52,281 nucleotides of DNA, taken from assembly GCA_946411205.1 (NCBI GenBank), contig CAMKDG010000006.1:1-52281 (forward strand). The letters are read 5' to 3'. A program made the position numbers and the translations under genes. Shown here piece by piece: positions 30,596 to 51,906 of this stretch. Each line of letters starts with the position of its first letter. Position 1 is the first letter of the stretch. The notes under the pieces are model-generated. The model had not been told where the DNA came from. It saw nothing but the letters and a program-made list of their open reading frames with translations, and did no database searches. Source of the DNA: an uncultured Desulfotomaculum sp. Its GTDB lineage: Bacteria; Bacillota; Desulfotomaculia; Desulfotomaculales; Desulfotomaculaceae.

Positions 30596-31393
30596 ATGAA
30601 TCGATTGGTCATCGTCAAAGGTGCAGGGGATATTGCTACCGGCATTGCCCATCGTTTGTATTGCAGTGGTTTTCGAGTAGTAACCACAGAACTTTTCCAG
30701 CCAACGGTGATTCGCCGCACGGTCGCCTTTGCCGAGGCTGTTTATACTGGACAGGTAATGGTGGAAGAGATTACGGCTGTGAAGACTTCGCCAGATAGCG
30801 TCCTACAGGTGGTGGAAGAGAGGAAGATTCCGGTGGTAGTGGACCCAACCGGTGCAGTGATCAAACAGCTTCGTCCCTGGGCCGTGGTGGATGCCATCTT
30901 GGCTAAACGAAACATCGGTACTCAAATAAACGATGCATCTGTTGTGATCGGGGTAGGCCCAGGATTTGTGGCCGGGGTGGATGTCCATGCTGTGGTAGAG
31001 AGTATGCGAGGCCATTATTTGGGACGGGTCCTTTATAACGGGCAAGCACTTCAGAACACGGGTGTTCCGGGTGATATTGGGGGCTATACCAAAGAAAGAA
31101 TTTTGCGGGCTCCCTGTGCGGGGGTATTTCAGGCAGAGCGATCCATAGGAACCATCGTTTCGGCCGGAGAAACGGTGGCTTGGGTTAATGATCAACCGGT
31201 TGTAGCAACTATTTCCGGTGTACTAAGGGGGCTGTTGCAAGAGGGGCTGATGGTAGAAGCCGGTATGAAAATAGGGGATATCGATCCCCGCTGTCAGCCG
31301 GAACATTGTTTTACTATTTCGGATAAAGCTAGATCCATTGGTGGCGGAGTATTGGAAGCCTTACTTTACCATGCTGCCAGGGAACATCAATGA
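30596..31393 (+). CDS. yqeB: Selenium-dependent molybdenum hydroxylase maturation protein YqeB
   Basis: A 265-residue protein of the EF2563/YqeB family, whose phylogenetic profile links it to selenium-dependent molybdenum hydroxylases; its biochemical step is not settled. An N-terminal Rossmann-like motif (VIVKGAGDIATGIAHRLYCS) is followed by VVDPTGAVIKQLRPWAVVDA, IGVGPGFVAGVDVHAVVESM, and a C-terminal biotinyl/lipoyl-like region (RAPCAGVFQAERSIGTIVSA). GGAGG occurs about 10 bases before the ATG. It is the first gene of a six-gene block with gaps or overlaps of a few bases. Confidence 0.9.
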   Translation: MNRLVIVKGAGDIATGIAHRLYCSGFRVVTTELFQPTVIRRTVAFAEAVYTGQVMVEEITAVKTSPDSVLQVVEERKIPVVVDPTGAVIKQLRPWAVVDAILAKRNIGTQINDASVVIGVGPGFVAGVDVHAVVESMRGHYLGRVLYNGQALQNTGVPGDIGGYTKERILRAPCAGVFQAERSIGTIVSAGETVAWVNDQPVVATISGVLRGLLQEGLMVEAGMKIGDIDPRCQPEHCFTISDKARSIGGGVLEALLYHAAREHQ

Positions 31394-31406
31394 CAGGGGT
31401 GAGAGG

Positions 31407-32183
31407 ATGAAGCTTTTTAAAGCTCTTTTGGCCGCGGCGGAGCGGGGTGAGGCTGTACAAATGATGACGCTGGTGGACGCACCAGCAGAGAGCAGGGCTA
31501 GTTTGGGGCAAATGCTGGTGCTTTACCCCGATGGTAGAACAGAGGGGCTACTGGTGGATACTCATTTTACTGAAAAAGTGTTGGAGCAAAGTAAGGCCTG
31601 TCAGTGGGAGCAGCCGAAGGTGCTGCCTATTTCTTACAACCAGCAGGAATATCGGATATTTTGGCATTGCCTGACCCGTAAAATGCGAGCAATTATTTTA
31701 GGTGGAGGGCACATTAGCCAACCCCTAGTGTCATTTTTAGCCCAACTGGATTATGAAGTTACAGTTATCGATGACCGTCCGGAATTTGCCAACCGACAGC
31801 GTTTCCCTATGGCCAAACACATTATCTGTGAAGATTTTATCAAAGCCTTGGAGCAAACCGCCTTTGATGACAATACAGCGGTTATCATTGTTACCCGAGG
31901 TCACCGTTACGACTTGGATTGTCTTAGAAGTATTGCCGGTCAAAGGGCAGGTTATTTAGGGATGATTGGCAGCTTGCGGCGGGTAAAGGCTGTACTGCAA
32001 TTATTAAAAGAAGAGGGAGTCTCTACAGAATGGCTGAATGCACTCAAAACTCCCATTGGTTTAGATCTGGGTGCCCAGAGTCCGGCGGAAATCGCCCTGA
32101 GCATTGCGGCAGAAATAGTGGCTCATTTTAAGGGTGGCCGGTACTTACCGTTATGTTCACTGGGAGGGCGGAGAAATGGATAA
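31407..32183 (+). CDS. XdhC-family protein with C-terminal Rossmann domain
   Basis: A 258-residue protein. The C-terminal half is a typical XdhC_C Rossmann domain: RAIILGGGHISQPLVSFLAQ, VTVIDDRPEFANRQRFP, AVIIVTRGHRYDLDCLRSI, and GYLGMIGSLRRVKAVLQLL. XdhC proteins insert sulfurated (or here selenated) molybdenum cofactor into xanthine dehydrogenases. The N-terminal 90 residues look like a worn XdhC_CoxI-type region lacking its GG-C motif. The ATG at 31407 has GTGAGAGG directly upstream; the longer reading from 31338 overlaps yqeB and has no such site. It overlaps the next gene by 8 bases. Confidence 0.87.
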   Translation: MKLFKALLAAAERGEAVQMMTLVDAPAESRASLGQMLVLYPDGRTEGLLVDTHFTEKVLEQSKACQWEQPKVLPISYNQQEYRIFWHCLTRKMRAIILGGGHISQPLVSFLAQLDYEVTVIDDRPEFANRQRFPMAKHIICEDFIKALEQTAFDDNTAVIIVTRGHRYDLDCLRSIAGQRAGYLGMIGSLRRVKAVLQLLKEEGVSTEWLNALKTPIGLDLGAQSPAEIALSIAAEIVAHFKGGRYLPLCSLGGRRNG

Positions 32184-32514
32184 AATAATCTTGCAGCGGA
32201 TCTGTGAACTACAACAGATGGAAGAGGGGATTCCCTTTGCCTTGTTGACCATCCTTTCCACCAAAGGTTCCACCCCCCGTAAGGCCGGAGCAACGATGCT
32301 GATGGAACGTACGGGCAGAACCTTTGGCACCATCGGTGGTGGTTGTGGCGAGGCCGAGGTAAAGCAGCGGGCGTTAATGGCTATGGATGATCAGACTTGT
32401 TGCATTCATAGGGTGAATATGGTGAACGATGTGGCTGCCGAAGAAGGGATGGTCTGTGGTGGCATCATGGAAGTGTTCATTCAAGTATTTCCCGGGTCGT
32501 CATGCCAAGGATGA
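32176..32514 (+). CDS. XdhC N-terminal (CoxI) domain protein
   Basis: A 112-residue protein consisting only of the XdhC_CoxI domain: FALLTILSTKGSTPRKAGAT, then RTFGTIGGGCGEAEVKQRAL, and VCGGIMEVFIQVF. In classical XdhC this domain is the N-terminal part of one chain. Here it is a separate gene placed after the Rossmann-domain gene. The conserved GGGCGE and VCGG cysteines are present, so it is probably functional and may complement the preceding protein. GGAGGGCGGAG precedes the ATG. The yqeC gene starts within its last codons. Confidence 0.85.
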   Translation: MDKIILQRICELQQMEEGIPFALLTILSTKGSTPRKAGATMLMERTGRTFGTIGGGCGEAEVKQRALMAMDDQTCCIHRVNMVNDVAAEEGMVCGGIMEVFIQVFPGSSCQG

Positions 32515-33290
32515 ACACACCCTTGATCTGGAAAGAAATCCTCCAGGAGCTACCCTCCCCCACCGTGGTAACCCTCATCGGTGGGGGAGGCAAGACCGCT
32601 CTGCTGTACTATCTGGTGAATCACTTGAATTCTTTAGGCATCCGGGCGGTGGCAGCGACGACAACCAAGCTATCCGCTTTGCGTAGGGATAGTGGATTTG
32701 CCGAGATTCACAGTATTACAGAGGGGTGCGAGTTGCTGAGGAATCGGATTGAGGGGCAGGCAACTGTTACGCTGGTGTATGGGAAGGATCACAACCCCGA
32801 TAAAATGATGGGCATTCCAAGGGAATGGGTGGATCAATTAGCCCAACAGTTTCCCCAAACCATCTTTTTGGTGGAGGGAGATGGTTCAGCCGGTCGCTCC
32901 CTCAAGGGCCATCTGCCCCATGAACCGGTGATTCCCGCTAGTACTAGGTTGGTGATTCCGGTGATCGGTATTGATATCCTGGGAACCCCTTTGCATAGCC
33001 ACTTTGTGCACCGCCCCGAGCGAGTGATACAAATGATCGGTGCCCCGGCGGAAACCGTTATCACTACGGAGATGGTACTACAATTATTGTTTCATTCCGA
33101 GGGTTATCTGAGCCAATGCCCGCCGAACAGCCAAGTATTGCCCTTTATCAATAAGGTAGAAGACTCGCTAGGTGTTAGACAAGCTCAGCAATTGGCCGAA
33201 GGTATTTTGTCCAGGCAACACGCTCAAATTCAAAACGTTGTCATCGGTAGCTTAGCACGGCAAGAATTTTTTGGTACCAGGAGGTTATGA
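32502..33290 (+). CDS. yqeC: Selenium-dependent hydroxylase maturation protein YqeC
   Basis: A 262-residue P-loop protein of the YqeC family, associated with selenium cofactor biosynthesis for molybdenum hydroxylases. The P-loop-like motif is VVTLIGGGGKTALLYYLV, followed by AVAATTTKLSA, FLVEGDGSAGRSLKGHLPHE and a C-terminal region ending FGTRRL. Either ATG 32502 or ATG 32511 may be used; both lie inside the end of the previous gene, which indicates translational coupling. It overlaps the next gene through ATGA. Confidence 0.9.
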   Translation: MPRMNTPLIWKEILQELPSPTVVTLIGGGGKTALLYYLVNHLNSLGIRAVAATTTKLSALRRDSGFAEIHSITEGCELLRNRIEGQATVTLVYGKDHNPDKMMGIPREWVDQLAQQFPQTIFLVEGDGSAGRSLKGHLPHEPVIPASTRLVIPVIGIDILGTPLHSHFVHRPERVIQMIGAPAETVITTEMVLQLLFHSEGYLSQCPPNSQVLPFINKVEDSLGVRQAQQLAEGILSRQHAQIQNVVIGSLARQEFFGTRRL

Positions 33291-41389: not shown

Positions 41390-42718
41390 ATGCTGCTGGT
41401 TGGTAATGGAAAGGTAATCACAAGGGATGCCGCTAAGCCCTACTTGCCGGAGGGCTGCGTGGCCATACAGGACAATGTAATTGCTGAAGTAGGAACGACG
41501 GAGGAACTGAGAAAAAAATACCCCAGGGCAGACTATATAGATGCTGCAGGTAAAGTTATTATGCCGGGTATGATCAATACCCACATGCATCTATACAGTA
41601 CTTTTGCCCGGGGGATGGCCCTGAAGGATGCCCCCCCCGGTAACTTCCTCCAAATACTGGAACGGTTGTGGTGGCGGTTGGACAAAGTCCTTACCCTGGA
41701 AGACATCTATTACAGTGCAATGCTGCCCTTGGTGGATTGCATTAAGAATGGTACCACCACCATCTTTGATCACCATGCCAGTCCTGGGGCAGTAAAGGAA
41801 AGCCTATTTACCATTGCTAAAGCTACCAAGGAAATGGGTGTCCGTAGTTGCCTGTGTTATGAGGTATCCGATCGGGATGGTGATGAGGTTATGGAACAGG
41901 GTATCCAAGAAAATATGGACTTCATCCGGCATGCTAAGGATGCCGCTGATGAGATGGTCAAGGGCATGTTTGGGCTGCATGCCTCCCTAACCCTCAGTGA
42001 TGCTACCCTAGCCAAATGCTGTGAGGCGAATGCCGGTTCCGGTGTTGGCTATCATGTGCACACCGCCGAAGGCTTGGCTGATGTCATCGATGCCCAGGAG
42101 AAATATGGTCAGCGAGTGGTAGAACGTCTTGCCAGTTTTGGCATTCTAGGACCCAAAACCATCACAGCCCACTGTGTTCACATCAATGAAGAAGAAATGG
42201 CTTTATTAAAACAAAGCAGTAGCCGGGTGGTACACAACCCGGAGTCCAATATGGGGAACGCCGTGGGAGCTGCCCCGGTGATGGAAATGATGCAACGGGG
42301 TGTGTTCGTTGGTTTAGGTACCGATGGTTACACCAGTGATATGTTTGAATCCTTTAAAGTGGCCAATATCCTGCACAAACATACCCAACAGGACCCCAGT
42401 GCAGCCTGGGTAGAGGTTCCCAACATGCTATTTAAGAACAATCCGCTGATTGGCCAAGAATACTTTGATAAACCATTGGGTTGTCTGAAGCCTGGTGCCT
42501 ATGCCGATGTCATTGTCGTAGATTATACCCCTCCCACACCTATGACCACCGATAACCTCAATAGCCACATCTTATTTGGTATGTCGGGTCGGGCGGTGGA
42601 CACCACCATCATTAATGGACGGGTGGTTATGCACAATCGCCGGTTACAGGGCATAGACGAAGAGCAAATTTATGCTCAGGCAAGAGAATTAGCGCATAAA
42701 GTTTGGGAGAGATTTTAG
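41390..42718 (+). CDS. ssnA: Aminohydrolase SsnA
   Basis: A 442-residue member of the TrzN/ATZ-type amidohydrolases, the SsnA family linked to selenium-dependent molybdenum hydroxylases. Metal ligands: MINTHMHLYSTFARGM, GYHVHTAEGLADV, TITAHCVHINEEE and LGTDGYTSDMFESFK. Related proteins are guanine or chlorohydrolase-type deaminases, so deamination of a purine or its ring-opened derivative is likely. The gene starts 12 bases after the previous stop, with AAGGAGTGGCGAG upstream. Confidence 0.93.
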   Translation: MLLVGNGKVITRDAAKPYLPEGCVAIQDNVIAEVGTTEELRKKYPRADYIDAAGKVIMPGMINTHMHLYSTFARGMALKDAPPGNFLQILERLWWRLDKVLTLEDIYYSAMLPLVDCIKNGTTTIFDHHASPGAVKESLFTIAKATKEMGVRSCLCYEVSDRDGDEVMEQGIQENMDFIRHAKDAADEMVKGMFGLHASLTLSDATLAKCCEANAGSGVGYHVHTAEGLADVIDAQEKYGQRVVERLASFGILGPKTITAHCVHINEEEMALLKQSSSRVVHNPESNMGNAVGAAPVMEMMQRGVFVGLGTDGYTSDMFESFKVANILHKHTQQDPSAAWVEVPNMLFKNNPLIGQEYFDKPLGCLKPGAYADVIVVDYTPPTPMTTDNLNSHILFGMSGRAVDTTIINGRVVMHNRRLQGIDEEQIYAQARELAHKVWERF

Positions 42719-42758
42719 AAAGTACATCAATTTATCCAACGAAAGCGAGTGGTAACAA

Positions 42759-44108
42759 ATGGCAGATCATGTTGTAGCACCAGTTGATGAAATGTTACCA
42801 AAAGGAAAACTATTTGTTTTTGGTTTGCAGCATGTCATGGCTATGTATGCTGGAGCAGTGGCGGTGCCTATCATCATTGCCAACTCTCTGGGATTATCAA
42901 AGGAAGAATTAATTTATCTAATTAATGCCGATTTGTTGGTGGGTGGAATTGCAACCATTATCCAGTCGCTGGGTGTCTGGAAGTTGGGAATTAGAAGCCC
43001 CATTATGCAAGGGGTGTCCTTTGCTGCTGTGACACCCATGGTGATGGTAGGGGCTCAACATGGATTGCGGGGCATCTTTGGTGCTACCATTGCTGCTGGT
43101 CTGATCGGATTTCTGATTAGTCCTTACTTTAGTAGGCTTATACGCTTTTTCCCACCAGTGGTAACAGGTACCATTATTACCCTCATAGGAGTCTCTCTGA
43201 TGCCGGTGGCTGTGCGCTGGGCTGGCGGTGGTGTAGTAACAGCACCTGATTTTGGTAGTTTGAAATATATTGGCTTGGCCCTGGTGGTGCTGTTGTTTGT
43301 TATTCTGATGTTTCGATTTTTTACTGGTTTCTACCAAAGTATTGCGGTACTTTTGGGTTTGATTTTTGGCACAATTGTTGCCATACCCTTAGGAATGACA
43401 AATTTTTCCCAGGTAGGTACTGCTTCCTGGGTGCAAATTATCATCCCCTTCCATTTTGGCCTGCCCATTTTTGATATAACGTCTATTTTGGCGATGACCT
43501 TGGCCATGCTCGTTATTATGACAGAAACCACTGGCGATATGGTAGCCGTGGGTGAAATTGTTGGCCAGAAAGTGGACAGGGAAGGCTTAACCAGAGGTTT
43601 ACGGGCGGACTGCTTTTCCACCATGCTGGGTGGTGTGATGAACACCTTTCCCCATTCGGCCTTTGCCCAAAACGTTGGATTGTTAGCCCTTACCGGCATT
43701 AAAAGCCGTTTTGTGGTGGTGGCGGCAGGGATTATTCTGGCTGTACTGGGGCTGTTCCCGAAAGCTGCTGCTGTGGTGGCGGCTATTCCTCAACCGGTGT
43801 TGGGGGGTGCAGGGATTGCCTTGTTTGGTATGGTGGCGGCCAGCGGTATCCGGACATTAAGTAAAGTAACCTTCGATGGTACCAATAACTCCATGATTGT
43901 GGCCGTGAGCCTGGGGCTAGGCCTAATTCCTTTGGCTGTTCCCACTTTTTATCATCATATGCCCCAGTGGGCACAGCTCATATTGCACAGTGGTATTACC
44001 GCCGGTAGCTTAGTTGCCATTGCATTGAATTACTTCTTTAATGAAACCGGGAAAAAATGGGATGAAGAAGCAGAGGAAGCTGAAACCGCTGCCTATCAAA
44101 CCCACTAA
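42759..44108 (+). CDS. NCS2-family nucleobase permease (xanthine/urate type)
   Basis: A 449-residue membrane protein with about 12-14 helices, nucleobase:cation symporter-2 family. Family motifs: FGLQHVMAMYAGAVAVPIII, the TM8 region VGEIVGQKVDREGLTRGLRA, and the NCS2 signature FAQNVGLLALTGIKSRFVVV. The Q-N-x-G-x4-T arrangement belongs to the purine (xanthine/uric acid) branch; uracil cannot be fully excluded. It sits between ssnA and preA and would feed the catabolic enzymes. Confidence 0.92.
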   Translation: MADHVVAPVDEMLPKGKLFVFGLQHVMAMYAGAVAVPIIIANSLGLSKEELIYLINADLLVGGIATIIQSLGVWKLGIRSPIMQGVSFAAVTPMVMVGAQHGLRGIFGATIAAGLIGFLISPYFSRLIRFFPPVVTGTIITLIGVSLMPVAVRWAGGGVVTAPDFGSLKYIGLALVVLLFVILMFRFFTGFYQSIAVLLGLIFGTIVAIPLGMTNFSQVGTASWVQIIIPFHFGLPIFDITSILAMTLAMLVIMTETTGDMVAVGEIVGQKVDREGLTRGLRADCFSTMLGGVMNTFPHSAFAQNVGLLALTGIKSRFVVVAAGIILAVLGLFPKAAAVVAAIPQPVLGGAGIALFGMVAASGIRTLSKVTFDGTNNSMIVAVSLGLGLIPLAVPTFYHHMPQWAQLILHSGITAGSLVAIALNYFFNETGKKWDEEAEEAETAAYQTH

Positions 44109-44166
44109 AAGTCACGTAGCCTCCAGCATTAACACGTAACAAATTGCAATAAAGGAGAAATAACTA

Positions 44167-45246
44167 ATGGCTAAAATTAGCGTAAATATCTGCGGACTGG
44201 AATTTCCTAACCCAGTAATGCCCGCCGCTGGCCCCGGTTCCAAGGATGGAGCCATGTGTCAAGCCGCAGCTAAGGGGGGGGCAGGTGGCATTGTTACCAA
44301 AACGATTTCAGTAAAACCTGCCGAGATTCCCCGTCCTTGCATGGCTCAAGTGAAGGGTGGCTTCCTGAACACCGAACTGTGGTCCGAGCTACCCAAGGAG
44401 CAATGGCTGGAGAAAGAATACAAACTGGTCAAAGAAACCGGTGTGCCGGTGATTATTGGCCTAGGCTACACGGCAGAACAAATTAGTGAATTAGCCAGGC
44501 TGGTAAAACCTTACGCTGACGCCTTGGAACTGTCTACTCACTATGTGGGCACCGATGTAGCTCCCATGATTGATGCCTTAAAAGCCGCCAAAGCGGCAGT
44601 GGATGTGCCGGTATTTTTGAAAATGAGTCCTCACACCGACATTAAGGAAATAGCCAAAGCTGCAGAAGCCGCTGGGGCAGATGGTTTGGTGATGATCAAT
44701 TCCTTTGGTCCTTGCATGGGGATTGATGTGGCTACTGGTTTGCCCCTCATGGGTAGCAAAACCGGTTACGGTTGGCTTTCCGGGGCCGCCATTCGTCCTT
44801 TGGCGGTACGTTGTATTTATGATGTAGCTCAAGTTGTTAATATTCCCATCTTTGGTGTGGGTGGTGTCACCAGCGGCCGCGATGTAGCAGAGATGTTTAT
44901 GGCTGGGGCTTCAGCTGTCCAGGTTTGCACCGAAGGAATTCTCAAAGGACCCAATATCTACGGGAAAATTGCCAAGGAACTCAACGATTTCTTAGATAGC
45001 CACGGTTATACCGACATTGCCCAAATTAAAGGACTCACGCTCAAAAAAATGGCTGAGCGGGCGTATCGGGAAGATTCCATAGCTCCGGTGGTCAATCATG
45101 ATAGCTGTACTAAGTGTGGTATTTGCGAAGTTAGCTGTATGTATAGTGCCATTTCCAGGGAGGAGCAGCTAAAAATCGATCCGCTTAAATGCTTTGGCTG
45201 TGGTCTTTGTGTAACCCGTTGCCCCAAGAGTGCACTGTCCCTATAA
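44167..45246 (+). CDS. preA: Dihydropyrimidine dehydrogenase subunit PreA-like
   Basis: A 359-residue flavoprotein with C-terminal ferredoxin. The FMN TIM barrel covers about residues 1-290 (NPVMPAAGPGSKDGAMCQAA, MINSFGPCMGIDVATG, PIFGVGGVTSGRDVAEMFMA). It is followed by two [4Fe-4S] sites, CTKCGICEVSCMYSAI and CFGCGLCVTRCPKSAL. In bacteria PreA works with PreT to reduce or oxidise pyrimidines with NAD(H). No preT is present in the window, and PreA is shorter than E. coli PreA, so another electron partner is probable. Strong AAAGGAG before the ATG. Confidence 0.9.
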   Translation: MAKISVNICGLEFPNPVMPAAGPGSKDGAMCQAAAKGGAGGIVTKTISVKPAEIPRPCMAQVKGGFLNTELWSELPKEQWLEKEYKLVKETGVPVIIGLGYTAEQISELARLVKPYADALELSTHYVGTDVAPMIDALKAAKAAVDVPVFLKMSPHTDIKEIAKAAEAAGADGLVMINSFGPCMGIDVATGLPLMGSKTGYGWLSGAAIRPLAVRCIYDVAQVVNIPIFGVGGVTSGRDVAEMFMAGASAVQVCTEGILKGPNIYGKIAKELNDFLDSHGYTDIAQIKGLTLKKMAERAYREDSIAPVVNHDSCTKCGICEVSCMYSAISREEQLKIDPLKCFGCGLCVTRCPKSALSL

Positions 45247-45274
45247 GCGAAACTGAAACCACGGGGGAAATGTT

Positions 45275-46663
45275 ATGGGAATCGTACTAACCGGAGGAAC
45301 CATTGTTACCGCGGTGGATTGTTACCAGGCAGATATTCGTCTGGTAGGAGAAAAAATTGTGGCCATTGGGAGAGACGTTAGCCAAGCAGAGGATACTGTG
45401 ATTAACGTGGAGGGGTGTTACTTGTTGCCCGGCGGCCTCGACCCCCATACCCACTTTGAATTGGAAGGTGTTACTACCACCGCTGATGATTTTGCCAGTG
45501 GTACTGCTGCTGCTTTGATGGGGGGGACCACTACTATCTTGGATTTTGCCACCCAGGGCAAAGGGGAAACTTTGGCCCAGGCCCTGGCAAACTGGCAGGC
45601 CAAGGCTGCTGGCAAATGCTTTGCCGATTTCGGTTTCCATCTAGCCATCACCGATTGGAACCAGGAAGTTTGCCGGGATATGCAAAGGCTGGTGGTAGAG
45701 GACGGCGTAGCCTCCTTTAAACTTTACATGGCGTATAAACACAATCTGCAAGTGGATGATGGGGTTATTCTTCAGGCACTAAAGCGTAGCCGGGAAGTGG
45801 GGGCACTCATTGGTTTTCACTGTGAAAACGGTGATGTAATTGATGTACTTATTCAGGAAGCTCGCAGCCAAGGGAAGCTGGCCCCACGCTTCCATGCCCT
45901 AACCCGACCTGCGGCCGTAGAAAGAGAAGCCACAGCCAGGGTACTTACCCTGGCTGAGTTGGCTGATGCACCGGTGTATATTGTTCATCTAAGCTGTGCC
46001 GGGGCCCTGCAGGAGGTGATCGCGGCCAGAGCCAGGGGGCTGGAGGTCTATGCAGAGACCTGTCCCCAATACCTAATCTTAGATGAATCTTGCTACGATA
46101 CAGAGGATTTTAGTGCAGCCAAGTATGTCTTGTCACCCCCCTTGCGCAGTACCTATGATCAAGCTGTGCTCTGGAATGGTCTACGGACCGGTGCTTTGGC
46201 TACCATTGGCACAGATCACTGCTCCTTTAATTATGAAGGACAGAAGGAATTGGGACGGGAGGATTTTAGCAAAATTCCCAACGGCATACCCGGTGTAGAG
46301 AACCGGCTGGGCTTGTTATATACCTACGGTGTTTTAACAGGCAAGATAAATTTACAGCAGTGGGTGGCTTTTACATCCACCAATGCAGCCAAATTATTTG
46401 GTCTGTTCCCCCGTAAGGGAACCCTGGCGGTGGGCAGTGATGCCGACGTGGTGGTGTGGGACCCCCGCCAAAGCAGTATCATCACCGCTCGTCAGCAAAC
46501 CCAGCGGGTAGATTATAACCCCTATGAGGGGTTGCCGCAGACAGGTAAAGTAGAGCAAGTATTCTTACGGGGGCAGCAGGTTGTAGCACAGGGTAAGCTT
46601 TGTCCAAAGGAACCCCGAGGGCAGTATCTTTGCCGCAAACCATTTCTGTCAAGAAAAGTTTAA
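45275..46663 (+). CDS. hydA: Dihydropyrimidinase / hydantoinase
   Basis: A 462-residue cyclic amidohydrolase. Zinc ligands GGLDPHTHFELEGVTTTADD, the carboxylated lysine in ASFKLYMAYKHNLQVDDGVI, FHCENGDVIDVL, VYIVHLSCAGALQEV and IGTDHCSFNYEGQKELGRED are all present. It opens cyclic imide or hydantoin-like rings; in this operon it is a candidate for the ring-opening step in purine or dihydropyrimidine breakdown. It starts 28 bases after preA. The downstream gap of 369 bases before ridA is unusually long and structured. Confidence 0.92.
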   Translation: MGIVLTGGTIVTAVDCYQADIRLVGEKIVAIGRDVSQAEDTVINVEGCYLLPGGLDPHTHFELEGVTTTADDFASGTAAALMGGTTTILDFATQGKGETLAQALANWQAKAAGKCFADFGFHLAITDWNQEVCRDMQRLVVEDGVASFKLYMAYKHNLQVDDGVILQALKRSREVGALIGFHCENGDVIDVLIQEARSQGKLAPRFHALTRPAAVEREATARVLTLAELADAPVYIVHLSCAGALQEVIAARARGLEVYAETCPQYLILDESCYDTEDFSAAKYVLSPPLRSTYDQAVLWNGLRTGALATIGTDHCSFNYEGQKELGREDFSKIPNGIPGVENRLGLLYTYGVLTGKINLQQWVAFTSTNAAKLFGLFPRKGTLAVGSDADVVVWDPRQSSIITARQQTQRVDYNPYEGLPQTGKVEQVFLRGQQVVAQGKLCPKEPRGQYLCRKPFLSRKV

Positions 46664-47032
46664 GCTTGTCTACAATGACTATAAATGGTAATCTAATAAC
46701 CGTGGTAAGTAAAATATCAACGGGTTACTGGGCTCAACGGGGTAATGTAGAGGAAGCATGGCTAAGCAAAATAGGTAATTACTAAAAAATATACTACATT
46801 GCCGAGAGAGCATGCCTTCCAGGGCCGGAACTATCCCAGGAAGACGTAGACGCACCTCTCTGTGAGCACCAAGGTTGGACCACGCCTAGTACGGCCTTGC
46901 GGCTATGCCGGGGGTGGTGCTACAATAAATGGCAACTAACTGACAAGGATGGCAGCCCTTGCTGTGAAAGAAAGGCTAAAAGCCATCCAGCCGCTGGTAT
47001 CGCCCGTGCTATTGAAAAAGGAGGATGTTATC
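46664..47032 (+). ncRNA. Structured intergenic region upstream of ridA
   Basis: No protein gene is supported. Nested pairings are visible: GAGAG (46804) with CTCTC (46856); inside it CTTCCAGGG (46816) with CCCAGGAAG (46835); then AGCACC (46865) with GGTGCT (46916) enclosing a further G+C-rich hairpin. Farther upstream AATGTAG (46744) can pair with CTACATT (46793). A short open frame MAKQNR-stop with GAGGAAGC in front starts at 46758. The arrangement looks like a structured 5' leader or small RNA between hydA and ridA. I could not match it to a known riboswitch class. Confidence 0.4.
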
Positions 47033-47410
47033 ATGAAAACCATTATTCACACCGAGAAGGCTCCCGCAGCCATTGGACCTTACTCCCAAGCTGTCAAAGC
47101 AGGCGGCTTCATCTTTGTCTCCGGTCAAATACCTGTTAACCCGGCCACGGGTGAGATAGTGGCAGGTGGCGTAGAGGCCCAAACGAAGCAGGTATTGGAA
47201 AACCTAACCGCCATTTTGCACAGCCAGGGTTTGGGCTTGGACCGTGTGGTAAAAACTTCGGTATTTATTAAAGACATGAATGATTTTCAAAAAATCAACG
47301 CAGTTTATGCGGAATACTTCAACAGTGAAGCCCCTGCCAGAGCTTGCGTGGAAGTGGCTAGACTGCCTAAGGATGTATTGGTAGAAATTGAAGCAATCGC
47401 TGTAGTGTAA
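47033..47410 (+). CDS. ridA: RidA family enamine/imine deaminase
   Basis: A 125-residue YjgF/YER057c/UK114 protein. Signatures: [40 protein letters not shown], and [20 protein letters not shown] with the active-site Arg. It hydrolyses reactive 2-aminoacrylate-type enamines; YgeX produces aminoacrylate on the way to pyruvate, so its presence here is chemically sensible. The ATG at 47033 has AAAGGAGG upstream; the upstream in-frame codons from 46949 lack a ribosome binding site. Last gene of the rightward run. Confidence 0.93.
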
Positions 47411-47415
47411 TCATA

Positions 47416-47451
47416 AAATGACCTGGGGCTGAAAAGTTCCCCAGGTCATTT
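47416..47451. terminator. Bidirectional terminator between ridA and the dsbA-like gene
   Basis: A perfect 13-bp stem (AAATGACCTGGGG / CCCCAGGTCATTT) with a 10-base loop is followed by CTTTTTCT on the plus strand. It separates two convergent genes. Confidence 0.85.
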
Positions 47452-47488
47452 CTTTTTCTATGAAGTTTTTGCCTACAAAAAAGTCAAT

Positions 47489-48091
47489 TTATTTTAGATA
47501 CGGGTCCAATGCCCTTTGGAAAGCAGCATAGGGTTGTGCACCGACAATTCTCTGTTGATCTTGCACAATATAGGTGGGTAAACCCGTTACTTGCCACTTG
47601 AGACCGGCCTGTCGATTCTCTTCCAGTCGCTTTTGGTAGTGGGGATCAATCAAAGCAGCGTCGACTTTGGCAGTGTCCAAGCCCAGTGAAGCTGCAATAT
47701 CGAGCATCACTTGCCGGGAACCAATGTTTAATCCTTTACTAAAATAGGCCTTAAACACCGCAGCGTGAAATTCTTCAAATAACCCCTGATCTTTAGCGTA
47801 TTCTGTTGCTACTAGGGCTAAATTGGTATTGGGAAGAAAGCTAACCGGCTGGAAGGTGAGTCCGTAGTCTGCACCAACTTTGTTAAAACGTTCATTGGCA
47901 GCCACCGGATCAAAATCTGGAAATAATTTTGCTAAATCTTCACCTGCCAGCGGTCTTTCAGGTCGTAATTCATAACCAAGCCAGGTAATCCTTAAGGGGT
48001 ATTCCTGGGAAAGTTTTTCGACAATACCTTTGCCGATATAGCAAAAGGGTCAGGCATAGTCAGAGAAGATTGTGAGATTGATGGAAGTCAT
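47489..48091 (-). CDS. DsbA-family thiol oxidoreductase (FrnE-like), probable selenoprotein with in-frame UGA
   Basis: Reading from the ATG at 48091 (GGGGTGA about 7 bases upstream) gives MTSINLTIFSDYA, a UGA codon (48052-48050), then PFCYIGKGIVEKLSQEYPLR and an uninterrupted 186-residue continuation to the stop at 47489. In DsbA/FrnE proteins the active site at this point is C-P-x-C, so UGA replaces the first cysteine, giving U-P-F-C. Just downstream of the UGA a hairpin is present (48035-48019, minus strand): CGGCAA-AGGTA-TTGTCG with GGU in the apical loop, 21 bases after the UGA. That agrees with a bacterial SECIS element. The cis-proline loop is VTGLPTYIV. Total 200 residues. A conventional caller would report only the part from the GTG at 47905. 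A nonsense mutation in a cysteine codon is the alternative, but the intact frame, ribosome binding site and hairpin speak for selenocysteine. Confidence 0.82.
48019..48035 (-). promoter_or_regulatory. Bacterial SECIS-like hairpin
   Basis: CGGCAAAGGTATTGTCG (minus strand) forms a 6-bp stem with one G-U pair and a five-base loop AGGUA. The loop GGU is centred about 22 bases 3' of the UGA, as in fdhF-type bSECIS elements. It lies within the coding sequence. Confidence 0.7.
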
Positions 48092-48123
48092 TTTATATTC
48101 ACCCCGTTAGCTTTCTTTTTATC

Positions 48124-48159
48124 AAATAGCCCTTGGCCTTACATGGCCAAGGGCTATTT
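48124..48159. terminator. Terminator between pdxK and the dsbA-like gene
   Basis: A perfect 15-bp inverted repeat (AAATAGCCCTTGGCC / GGCCAAGGGCTATTT) with a six-base loop. It lies after pdxK on the minus strand, so the dsbA-like gene probably has its own promoter or depends on read-through. Confidence 0.8.
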
Positions 48160-48186
48160 AGCATATCCCAATGCAAAAATAGTAAA

Positions 48187-48987
48187 CTACTGCCGATAGT
48201 TCCTGTAAGCACCGTGATTGGTAGGCCCAGCAAACTGATTAATGGGAAAAGCGTGACGAATGGCGGCGGTAATAAATTCCTTAGCCACCAGCACAGCTTC
48301 TTTAACGGTCTTGCCCTTAGCCAGTTCAGCGGTAATGGCTGCGGAATAGGTGCAACCGGCACCGTGGGTATAGGTGGTCGTAATTCGTTCACCCTCTAAT
48401 AATTCAAAAGATTGTCCATCATAGAGCAGATCGATGGCCTTTTCATGTTCCAGACGGGCGCCACCCTTAACTAAAACATATTGAACACCCAGGGCGTGAA
48501 TTTTTTTAGCGGCTTCTTTCATTTCTTCTAACGTTTTAATGGGAGCCTGTTGGCTAAGTTGGGCTGCTTCAAATAAATTGGGTGTTACAATCGTAGCCCG
48601 AGGAACCAAAACTTCCCGTAAACTCTTGGCATTATCCGGGTCTAATACCGTGTCGTCGCCTTTGCAGATCATCACTGGGTCTACTACAACATTTTCCAAC
48701 TTATACTCATCAATGGTCTGGGCGGCTAGCTCAATAATATCAGTAGAACCTAGCATACCGGTTTTCATTGCATTTACACCGATAGAAAGAATGGTGTTTA
48801 ATTGAGATTTTACAATGTCTGTTGATTGAGGAAAAACGTTGTGATTCCAAGTATTTGGATCCATTGAAACAATGGTAGTAATAGCGGTCATACCGTAAAC
48901 ACCGAGTTCCTGGAAGGTTTTCAAATCTGCCTGAATCCCGGCTCCGCCGCTGCTGTCTGAACCGGCAATGGTTAATGCTTTATACAT
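48187..48987 (-). CDS. pdxK: Pyridoxine/pyridoxal kinase (PdxK, ThiD-like)
   Basis: A 266-residue ribokinase-fold enzyme phosphorylating B6 vitamers to PLP precursors. Motifs: KALTIAGSDSSGGAGIQADL, VYGMTAITTIVSMDPNTWNH, NVVVDPVMICKGDD, and the GAGC anion hole THGAGCTYSAAITAELAKG. The MICKGDD and HGAGC forms match Bacillus PdxK more than classical ThiD. It could serve the PLP-dependent YgeX. AAAGGAG is upstream of the ATG. An alternative role in thiamine pyrimidine phosphorylation is less likely. Confidence 0.88.
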   Translation of the reverse strand: MYKALTIAGSDSSGGAGIQADLKTFQELGVYGMTAITTIVSMDPNTWNHNVFPQSTDIVKSQLNTILSIGVNAMKTGMLGSTDIIELAAQTIDEYKLENVVVDPVMICKGDDTVLDPDNAKSLREVLVPRATIVTPNLFEAAQLSQQAPIKTLEEMKEAAKKIHALGVQYVLVKGGARLEHEKAIDLLYDGQSFELLEGERITTTYTHGAGCTYSAAITAELAKGKTVKEAVLVAKEFITAAIRHAFPINQFAGPTNHGAYRNYRQ

Positions 48988-49344
48988 TTCTAGAAAACTC
49001 CTTTCATTAACATAATGTCATTTTAACATACTAATTCTGGAGAGTGAAAGTAGTATCAAGGAAGATTTTTGTACTTGTAAACTTTTTAAACAGACTATCA
49101 GCAATTGATGAATCATAGATATTTTCTGCCATATGGGGTGAACCTATCCATTGTCCTGTTGGAACGGTTAATTGCCCGTCTCTTCAAAAGTTTCGGTTGA
49201 CTTGCTATCGCTTTACCGGATGGAAGTGAAAAGAATAGCAAGAGGGTGGTAAATATTGTATTTGGCTTTGGACTACTTTTAAAGGCTATATTGGAACATA
49301 CTTATTATAACAAAAAAAATTCCTTATAAGTGAGGTTGAGCTAA
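48988..49344. other. Divergent intergenic region upstream of the xdh-type gene
   Basis: It carries promoters for pdxK (minus) and the molybdenum hydroxylase (plus). A hairpin at 49202-49243 pairs CTTGCTAT with ATAGCAAG and, inside, GCTT with AAGT. A near sigma-54 match at 49160-49175 has 11 bases between GG and GC and is not accepted. No gene was seen. Confidence 0.4.
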
Positions 49345-51906
49345 ATGTATTCACTAACTCTTAATGGCCAGAGGGTTACCGTAGAGAAGAATATAAACTT
49401 GTTAGATTACCTGCGTGAGGAAGCCCGCTTAACCTCTGTAAAAAACGGTTGTGGTGAAGGAGCCTGTGGAGCCTGTATGGTGTTGGTGGATGGTAAAGCG
49501 ATGCGGGCTTGTCTTTTAAACTTAGAGAAGGTAGCGGGCAAAAGTGTTATCACCGTTGAGGGATTATCAGAAAAAGAAAAGGATATTTACAGTTGGGCTT
49601 TTATGAAGGCAGGAGCCGTACAATGTGGCTTTTGTATTCCCGGCATGGTGATCAGTGCTAAGGGGCTAATCGATAAAAATCCTGATCCATCCCCTACCGA
49701 GATTAAAAAGGCTTTACATGGCAATATTTGCCGTTGCACGGGCTATGTCAAGATTGAAAAAGCCATTGCGATGGCTGCCAAGGCCCTCAGAGAGGGTTAT
49801 GATCCTGAAATCAAACCCAATTACCGCGTAGGAGATCGGATGCCCCGGGTGGATGCCAAGGGTAAAACCCTAGGTACGGCAGAATATGTTGATGATATGC
49901 AAGTGCCAGGCATGTTACATGGTGCAGCATTAAGGAGTAAATATGCCAGGGCGTTGGTTAAACGCATTGACATTGCCAAGGCTCAGGCATATCCTGGCGT
50001 GGTTGCGGTATTGTTGGCCAAAGATGTCCCCGGAGAGCGTTTTGAGGGGCATGTTGTGCATGACTGGCCAGCTATGATAGCGGAAGGGGAGGAAACCCGC
50101 TATGTGGGAGATGCCTTGGCTTTGGTGGCAGCTACCTCACGCAAGATTGCTAAGGAAGCACTGGCCTTAATTGAAGTGGAATATGAGGAAAGAAAACCCT
50201 TGTTAAGTCCCCAAGCAGCCATGGCTGAAGGTGCTCCCAAGATTCATCAAGCGGTAGAGCGGAATATTCTACGGACAACCCAGGTTAAGAGAGGGAATGT
50301 GGAGGAAGCCATTGACAAAGCCAAGTATGTGGTAACACAAAAATATACCACTCCCTCTACGGAACATGCCTTCCTGGAACCGGAAAGTGCCTTGGCCATC
50401 CCCAACCAGGATGGAACCCTAACCCTCTATGTGGGTAGCCAAAATGTCTATGACGACCATCGGGGTGTTATCCAGATTTTGGGGGTTTCAGAACGGCAAG
50501 TAAGGGTTATTAGCAAGATGGTGGGAGGCGGTTTTGGCGGTAAGGAAGATTTGTCGGTGCAGCACCATGCAGCTTTATTGGCGTGGTATGCCAAAAAGCC
50601 AGTGAAAGTGACCTGGGACCGCCAGGAAAGCATCCGGGTACATCCCAAACGACATGCCGCGGATATGGAGTACACCGTAGCCTGTGACGAAAATGGTAAG
50701 ATTACCGCAGTGAAAGCAGTAATTATTACAGATACCGGAGCCTATGCCTCCTTGGGCGGACCGGTGACCGAGCGTGCTTGTACCCATGCGGCAGGACCCT
50801 ACCAGATCGCCAATGTAGACCTTACCGGGATTGCTGTCTATACCAATAATCCACCTGCCGGGGCTTTCCGAGGTTTTGGCGTACCCCAATCCTGTTTTGC
50901 CATGGAATCCACCCTCAATCTACTGGCTGAGAAGGTAGGGATTTCTCCTTGGGAAATCCGTTACCGTAACGCTATTGAACCAGATGGGGTACTCCCCAAC
51001 GGACAAATTGCCGATGGGGGTACAGCCCTTAAAGAAACGTTGCTGGCAGTGAAAGATGCCTTTGCAAGTAGTCCCCATGCGGGTATTGCCTGTGCTATGA
51101 AGAACAGCGGTATTGGCGTGGGGTTATCCGATGTGGGGCGCATAAGATTAGTGGTTGAAAATAGCAAGGTCATGATTTTAACCGGTGCTGCCTGTATCGG
51201 ACAAGGCCTGTCCACGGTATTAAATCAAATTGTGGCGGAGACCACCGGGCTTAATTACAAGCAATTGGAGACCGGTAATCCAGATACCTACACCACTCCG
51301 AACGGCGGTACCACGACAGCTTCCCGGCAAACCCTCTTTACCGGTGAAGCAGCTCGGGTGGCAGCTTTGGATCTTAAAAAGGATTTGGCGAGTCACAGTT
51401 TGGAGGAATTGGCAGGGAAGGAGTATTATGGTGAATTTTCGGCCAAAACCGACCCTATCGGCACAGGTAAACCCCACCCGGTAAGCCATATTGCCTACGG
51501 CTATGCTACTCATGTGGCAATCTTAGATGAAGAGGGCAAAGTGGCCAAAGTGGTGGCAGCTCACGATGTGGGACGGGCCATTAACCCTACCGGCGTAGAA
51601 GGGCAAATTGAGGGTGGGGTAGCCATGGGTTTGGGATATGCCCTAACCGAAGATTTTCCCTTAAAAGAGGGTATGCCTACAGCAAAATTTGGTACTTTGG
51701 GCTTGTTCCGTGCCACCAATATGCCAGAAATTGAATGTATTATCGTGGAGAAGAACCAAGTGCCCTTGGCCTATGGTGCCAAGGGTATCGGCGAAATTGC
51801 CACGATTCCTACCGCTCCGGCAGTGGCCGGTGCTTATTATAGAAAGGACGGCAAGCTCAGAACCAGCCTACCTATGAGTGAAACTGCCTATAGTAGGAAA
51901 AAGTAA
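49345..51906 (+). CDS. Selenium-dependent xanthine dehydrogenase-type molybdenum hydroxylase, Fe-S/Mo fusion
   Basis: An 853-residue enzyme in a single chain. The N-terminal plant-type [2Fe-2S] ferredoxin (about 1-75: CGEGACGACMVLVDG) and second all-helical [2Fe-2S] domain (about 76-150: QCGFCIPGMVISAKGL, GNICRCTGYVKIEKA) are fused to the large molybdopterin domain (about 165-850), with KMVGGGFGGKEDL, PPAGAFRGFGVPQ and the late GAKGIGEIATIPTAPAVAGA. There is no FAD domain, as in XdhD-type, selenium-dependent members. In this type selenium is a labile non-protein ligand of Mo, not selenocysteine. The locus context (yqeB, yqeC, ssnA, ygeX) makes a purine or hypoxanthine/xanthine hydroxylase the best call. 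AGGTTGAG precedes the ATG. Confidence 0.93.
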   Translation: MYSLTLNGQRVTVEKNINLLDYLREEARLTSVKNGCGEGACGACMVLVDGKAMRACLLNLEKVAGKSVITVEGLSEKEKDIYSWAFMKAGAVQCGFCIPGMVISAKGLIDKNPDPSPTEIKKALHGNICRCTGYVKIEKAIAMAAKALREGYDPEIKPNYRVGDRMPRVDAKGKTLGTAEYVDDMQVPGMLHGAALRSKYARALVKRIDIAKAQAYPGVVAVLLAKDVPGERFEGHVVHDWPAMIAEGEETRYVGDALALVAATSRKIAKEALALIEVEYEERKPLLSPQAAMAEGAPKIHQAVERNILRTTQVKRGNVEEAIDKAKYVVTQKYTTPSTEHAFLEPESALAIPNQDGTLTLYVGSQNVYDDHRGVIQILGVSERQVRVISKMVGGGFGGKEDLSVQHHAALLAWYAKKPVKVTWDRQESIRVHPKRHAADMEYTVACDENGKITAVKAVIITDTGAYASLGGPVTERACTHAAGPYQIANVDLTGIAVYTNNPPAGAFRGFGVPQSCFAMESTLNLLAEKVGISPWEIRYRNAIEPDGVLPNGQIADGGTALKETLLAVKDAFASSPHAGIACAMKNSGIGVGLSDVGRIRLVVENSKVMILTGAACIGQGLSTVLNQIVAETTGLNYKQLETGNPDTYTTPNGGTTTASRQTLFTGEAARVAALDLKKDLASHSLEELAGKEYYGEFSAKTDPIGTGKPHPVSHIAYGYATHVAILDEEGKVAKVVAAHDVGRAINPTGVEGQIEGGVAMGLGYALTEDFPLKEGMPTAKFGTLGLFRATNMPEIECIIVEKNQVPLAYGAKGIGEIATIPTAPAVAGAYYRKDGKLRTSLPMSETAYSRKK

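Follow-up and report, generated by a model that had tools for sequence, protein, structure and literature searches.

The window, that is, the whole 52,281-nucleotide stretch of DNA analysed here, corresponds to contig 6 in an assembly of 3.62 Mb with a completeness of 94.7%, from a host of the genus Desulforamulus. Positions 48091–47489 of the minus strand form a single frame, the sole interruption of which is a TGA at 48052–48050 (codon 14). Our re-reading agreed with an earlier annotation based on the letters of the DNA (hereafter, the sequence-only reading), which had drawn the frame from the ATG at 48091 through one UGA to 47489 and had placed this UGA on the first residue of the DsbA CxxC motif; codon 14 is the U of U-P-F-C. 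Readthrough of the TGA gives MTSINLTIFSDYA-U-PFCYIGKGIVEKL..., a protein of 200 residues with U at position 14. The G-rich sequence GGGGTG ahead of the ATG is, by eye, a likely ribosome-binding site. The DSBA domain PF01323 was complete in the product (E 2.6e-33; 115.8 bits against a cut-off of 25.6), and none of the NCBIfam models scored above its own cut-off for the protein. As had also been claimed for a normal gene caller, the standard ORF list gave only a truncated frame, in which the active site is missing. The features are summarized in Table 1.

Table 1 Features of the probable selenoprotein gene in the window.
Feature	Coordinates	Strand	Remarks
Coding region of the probable Sec-containing FrnE-type oxidoreductase	47489..48091	-	ATG 48091-48089, TAA 47491-47489, 200 aa, PF01323
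In-frame UGA, codon 14, first residue of U-P-F-C, very probably read as Sec	48050..48052	-	TGA/Cys alternation among loci
Cys17, second residue of the redox pair	48041..48043	-	Invariant in the A2 alignment; sole Cys of the protein
bSECIS-like hairpin, stem UCGGCAA/UUGUCGA (7 bp), loop AGGUA (5 nt)	48018..48036	-	Conservation and covariation
Truncated 138-aa ORF without the active site	47489..47905	-	Standard ORF list, GTG start
Pro172, invariant proline	47576..47578	-	Invariant column of the A2 alignment

The AlphaFold2 model of the product had a mean pLDDT of 96.2 and placed residue 14 immediately before a helix of residues 15–30. Pro172 is presumably the proline of the cis-Pro loop expected opposite the active site. 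The five best PDB matches of the model were structures of D. radiodurans FrnE (TMq 0.87–0.89), and the next was SCO1869 of S. coelicolor, a probable DsbA oxidoreductase that is elsewhere named FrnE. The predicted model has the FrnE fold; COG2761 also bears the name FrnE. D. radiodurans FrnE (DR_0659; PDB 5cnw, 5co3, and 5cp1; phmmer E 2e-17) shares with the window protein the fold, the CP(W/F)C position, and the expected cytoplasmic location, but it has Cys where the window protein has Sec, and it has a C-terminal CxxxxC; this motif is absent from the window protein, whose only Cys is Cys17. In one report, FrnE proteins are classed as DsbA-family oxidoreductases of predicted cytoplasmic location, and D. 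radiodurans FrnE as a disulfide reductase whose active site is regenerated with the help of the C-terminal CxxxxC (PMC8945050). Other FrnE proteins are also without this motif (PMC8945050). Many but not all members have it, and it does not define the group.

Selenoproteins of this type have been described before. In a 2005 study of the Sargasso Sea, nine sequences of a selenoprotein termed 'DsbA-like protein' were assigned to COG2761 with the motif UXXC, and predicted bSECIS elements were shown for the family (PMC1088965). A study of 2006 credited Desulfotomaculum reducens with a DsbA-like selenoprotein and counted the DsbA-like family among the families that sister organisms had lost (PMC1794560). 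A survey of 2016 counted 45 DsbA-like selenoproteins in 41 organisms (PMC5029168), and in a review of 2026 the entry 'DsbA-like protein form 1' is given with PF01323 and UxxC (PMC13188914). As far as the published descriptions allow comparison, the window gene and this family have PF01323, UxxC, a single Sec, and a predicted bSECIS in common, and no distinguishing difference was found. D. reducens, formerly Desulfotomaculum reducens, is placed in Desulforamulus by current taxonomy. Its DsbA-like selenoprotein, compared here by the 2006 listing (PMC1794560), belongs to the same genus as the window, and the window gene is very probably its orthologue. The sequence-only reading had called this DsbA-like selenoprotein hidden; it does not represent a new kind, because the family has been published, also from the same genus (PMC1088965, PMC1794560, PMC13188914). 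A literature search by title found no bacterial selenoprotein FrnE, and related searches led to a paper on sea squirts and to the 2006 study; the family is filed as DsbA-like, so that these results do not imply absence from print. Since the gene was present in seven of the nine genomes of the genus searched, it is ordinary for its genus.

The genes for Sec synthesis and insertion, for which the sequence-only reading had left the genome to be searched, were all present in the host. selA and selB adjoin on contig 54, selD is located on contig 30, and a tRNA-Sec with the anticodon TCA is located on contig 63. The host selD itself contains one in-frame TGA, with its own hairpin behind it (−11.0 kcal/mol).

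We then compared the UGA among related genes. In the order, 27 of the 113 genomes searched matched at 1e-10, and 26 of these, including G007, carried the gene with one in-frame TGA; the remaining one (G090) gave a partial match to residues 64–195 with no TGA. The nearest named relative, Desulforamulus aeronauticus DSM 10349, encodes a protein 97% identical and has the TGA as well, and the conserved TGA spanned relatives down to 33% protein identity. A class-level search at 1e-15 again comprised 113 genomes; it matched 26, all of them already known from the order search. A nonsense mutation or a sequencing error, which would make the locus a decaying Cys-type gene with a TGA derived from TGC or TGT, could account for the broken ORF in the standard ORF list. 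This explanation is extremely improbable, as the same TGA was found in the 26 genomes of the order and down to 33% identity, TGA but neither TAA nor TAG occurred at this position in the wider comparison described below, and the codons behind the TGA were under extra constraint. A read error at 48050–48052, which the sequence-only reading had named as a way in which it might fail, would be private to this assembly and was ruled out by the conservation.

A draw of 398 genomes from the phylum yielded 30 matching genomes at 1e-15. A TGA was listed for 14 of these and none for the other 16, although G226, in the second group, actually carries a TGA upstream of the listed piece. Across 133 loci, duplicates included, codon 14 was TGA in 39, TGT or TGC in 94, and any other codon in none. 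The Cys loci were partly found by a Cys-bearing peptide pattern (best 80 of 156), and the ratio 39:94 is not a frequency. With the same limit on the Cys loci, the 94 TGT/TGC loci show that relatives do have Cys at the position of U, a point that had been raised from the sequence alone. In the A2 alignment of 43 sequences, D11, C/U14, P15, C17, P172, and G184 were invariant. In a search of plasmid proteins, each of the 492 records obtained had less than 60% identity; the 20 matches listed were mostly annotated as DsbA family (oxidoreductase) or unannotated, and one was a polyketide biosynthesis protein.

The TGA-form genes of three genomes had unusual structures. The gene of G226 (L140, contig 1) is a Sec-form FrnE that has lost a large piece of the helical part by an in-frame deletion, and its active-site end and C-terminal part share one open frame. 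In G073 (contig 8, 45905–46337), a Sec-FrnE appeared as two matches (L113 and L115) with the middle missing, perhaps through a frameshift or decay. The Sec-FrnE gene of G150 (L122) contains an additional in-frame TAG.

The UGA might instead be a true stop followed by a restart at the GTG at 47905; the resulting product of 138 residues would lack the active site, and the two forms might perhaps be exchanged by a selenium-dependent switch. In favour of this possibility, the 138-residue frame is open, and selenoprotein genes normally show termination at the UGA when selenium is short. Nevertheless, the sequence ahead of and surrounding the UGA was conserved as protein (FSDY-x-U-PFC-YIG), and the Cys relatives keep it in one protein; we regard a restart as very improbable.

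The distribution of SelB was also investigated. Outside the order, all 10 genomes listed with TGA had a SelB score over the cut-off, as did 5 of 16 others, G226 being one of these 5. When G226 was moved to the TGA group, the numbers became 11 of 11 versus 4 of 15 (Fisher p 0.0002). Inside the order the test was non-discriminating, because 109 of the 113 genomes had SelB over the cut-off. Two genomes with the gene gave no SelB match: G038 (84% complete) at 1e-40 and G110 (57% complete) over the cut-off. Readthrough of the UGA by a near-cognate tRNA, with insertion of Cys or Trp, would also give a full-length protein, as any residue would. We assign next to no probability to it in view of the complete Sec machinery, the SECIS-type hairpin, the alternation with Cys only, and the presence of SelB in all 10 TGA-form genomes listed outside the order.

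Behind the UGA, the RNA can form the hairpin UCGGCAA-AGGUA-UUGUCGA, in which 48036–48030 pair with 48024–48018 and 48029–48025 form the loop. The stem begins 13 nt and the loop 20 nt after the UGA, with G second in the loop. The bSECIS model, as given in the 2026 review, has a loop of 3–9 nt, a stem of 4–16 bp, a minimum free energy of −7.5 kcal/mol or lower, a G in the first two loop positions, and a distance of 16–37 nt from the UGA (PMC13188914). The hairpin lies within this geometry (loop 5 nt, stem 7 bp, distance 20 nt); its presence had been claimed correctly from the sequence alone, but with a stem of 6 bp instead of 7 bp. Its energy was −6.7 kcal/mol when folded alone, short of −7.5, and with the hairpin enforced the 54-nt and 63-nt folds gave −7.4 and −8.6 kcal/mol, respectively, for the same cut-off. 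The 52-nt fold made from the window alone had z = −0.69, and its minimum-energy structure was another hairpin that is not kept in relatives. Among 5000 synonymous recodings of the region, 171 formed a bSECIS-like hairpin of equal or greater stability, and Rfam produced no match at the gathering threshold in the whole window. Single-sequence folding is uninformative here, and the hairpin taken alone is unremarkable.

Comparison among relatives was more informative with respect to this doubt. In 28 loci, synonymous identity was 1.00 at the stem codons +5, +6, +9, and +10 after the UGA (ATC, GGC, ATT, and GTC), where 0.38, 0.26, 0.38, and 0.27 were expected, and most flanking codons were near expectation. 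These 28 of the 39 TGA loci exclude the duplicates L009 and L115 and nine loci of different local sequence (L111, L112, L121, L122, L123, L124, L129, L134, and L135). In 15 hand-picked variants, which include L121 and L123 and leave out the seven Sec loci that lack the hairpin (L111, L112, L122, L124, L129, L134, and L135), 98.1% of the stem positions were paired (2 of 105 cells unpaired), and slid controls reached at most 53.3%. Among these variants, A-U was replaced with C-G in two, A-U with G-C in one, C-G with U-A in one, and G-U with G-C in four. None of 500 shuffles attained the covariation score, and 7 of 500 attained the number of pairs with double changes. For further pair types, 108 of 500 shuffles equalled the observed number, and that measure gave no support for the structure. 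The doubt from the single-sequence fold was removed by the TGA in 26 of the 27 genomes, the frozen stem codons, and the covarying pairs.

We also counted hairpins in the distinct regions behind codon 14, 37 from Sec loci and 89 from Cys loci (the latter partly the best 80 of 156). A bSECIS-like hairpin of −6 kcal/mol or lower was present in 31 of the 37 Sec regions versus 8 of the 89 Cys regions, with the same limit on the Cys loci; synonymous recodings reached such a hairpin in 4.9% (Sec) and 7.1% (Cys) of cases. L113 had a weaker hairpin (−5.4 kcal/mol). The distant Sec genes L124 and L135 had different hairpins that fit the model at another place. With a simple script, no clear simple bSECIS hairpin was detected in the first 60 nt of L111, L112, L122, L129, and L134; these TGA-form genes may have either bulged hairpins or another SECIS class.

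Taken together, the Sec machinery, the UGA/Cys alternation, the conserved and covarying hairpin, the SelB co-occurrence, and the predicted FrnE fold bear out the proposal of the sequence-only reading that the gene makes a Sec-containing FrnE/DsbA-like oxidoreductase. We conclude, with a probability of about 0.94, that it encodes a selenoprotein belonging to the known DsbA-like (COG2761/FrnE-type) family and that its UGA is translated as Sec. In the proposed mechanism, the AGGUA-loop hairpin behind codon 14 would hold SelB, GTP, and Sec-tRNA, and Sec would be inserted at the UGA instead of termination. The 200-residue product is predicted to consist of a thioredoxin fold with a helical insert; the first strand starts at residue 4 and leaves no space for a signal peptide, and a cytoplasmic protein is thus expected. 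Attack on a substrate disulfide would fall to Sec14, and resolution of the resulting mixed selenenylsulfide to Cys17. By homology with D. radiodurans FrnE, the protein may be a cytoplasmic disulfide reductase or isomerase. The locus offers a clean example of a selenoprotein gene whose ordinary ORF begins past the active site. Similar genes are likely mis-annotated across the order, because no NCBIfam model fits above its cut-off.

The window also contains other selenium-related genes. At 30596–33290 and 41390–51906, we found YqeB, YqeC, SsnA, a Se-dependent xanthine dehydrogenase, and a dihydropyrimidinase-type enzyme, and this is a purine/pyrimidine degradation region. A selenium/molybdenum locus alongside the gene, as claimed earlier, is indeed present, but the link was not supported: in 20 related regions fetched (mostly 14–15 kb, two shorter), the xanthine dehydrogenase family was found in one, that of G001, a genome placed in the window's genus by the genome search. 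The protein could be a working part of this selenium-dependent molybdenum hydroxylase/purine locus, considering that the dehydrogenase lies about 1.3 kb from the gene and is accompanied by SsnA, YqeB, and YqeC in the window. Such a role is quite improbable given the single retained linkage, the G003 region, which keeps other neighbours (a kinase, RidA, and one more) with no dehydrogenase, and the rest, which differ. Shared neighbours were confined to small groups of near relatives, and the neighbourhood gave no functional lead; judging from these sequence comparisons, the adjacent locus is probably incidental to the selenoprotein gene.

Finally, the phylogeny of Sec and Cys forms was analysed using 127 rows, namely the 133 classed loci without L009, L115, L113, L122, L140, and L110. 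Of the Sec forms of the order, 22 grouped with two from other phylum genomes in one clade of 24, whereas L111 and L112 were placed elsewhere. Over the whole tree, Sec/Cys changes numbered six by parsimony and at least four by well-supported branches. The family thereby provides a natural experiment, with repeated Sec/Cys changes in one enzyme family and a hairpin that is found in most Sec forms and is rare in Cys forms. No Cys version was seen in the order (113 genomes searched at 1e-10, the partial match of G090 being unclassable), which would fit a Sec that is not swappable back. The C-terminal CxxxxC was present in 1 of 33 Sec forms versus 66 of 92 Cys forms (the Cys loci partly the best 80 of 156); this count leaves out L009, L115, L113, L140, and L122, which were excluded individually, and three other loci whose ends were incomplete. 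It is conceivable, though rather unlikely, that in this clade Sec replaced the C-terminal CxxxxC dithiol and left a stripped-down FrnE with the Sec-Cys pair as its sole redox centre. The sole exception to this idea is L135; phylogeny confounds the comparison, and several Cys clades are also without the motif. L135 (G493, contig 23, 29561–30160) is a Sec form inside a Bacillus/Paenibacillus-type Cys clade and has the C-terminal CxxxxC. Its SECIS-like hairpin is a different one (GGCGUC-UGGAU-GACGCU), and L135 looks like an independent Cys/Sec change.
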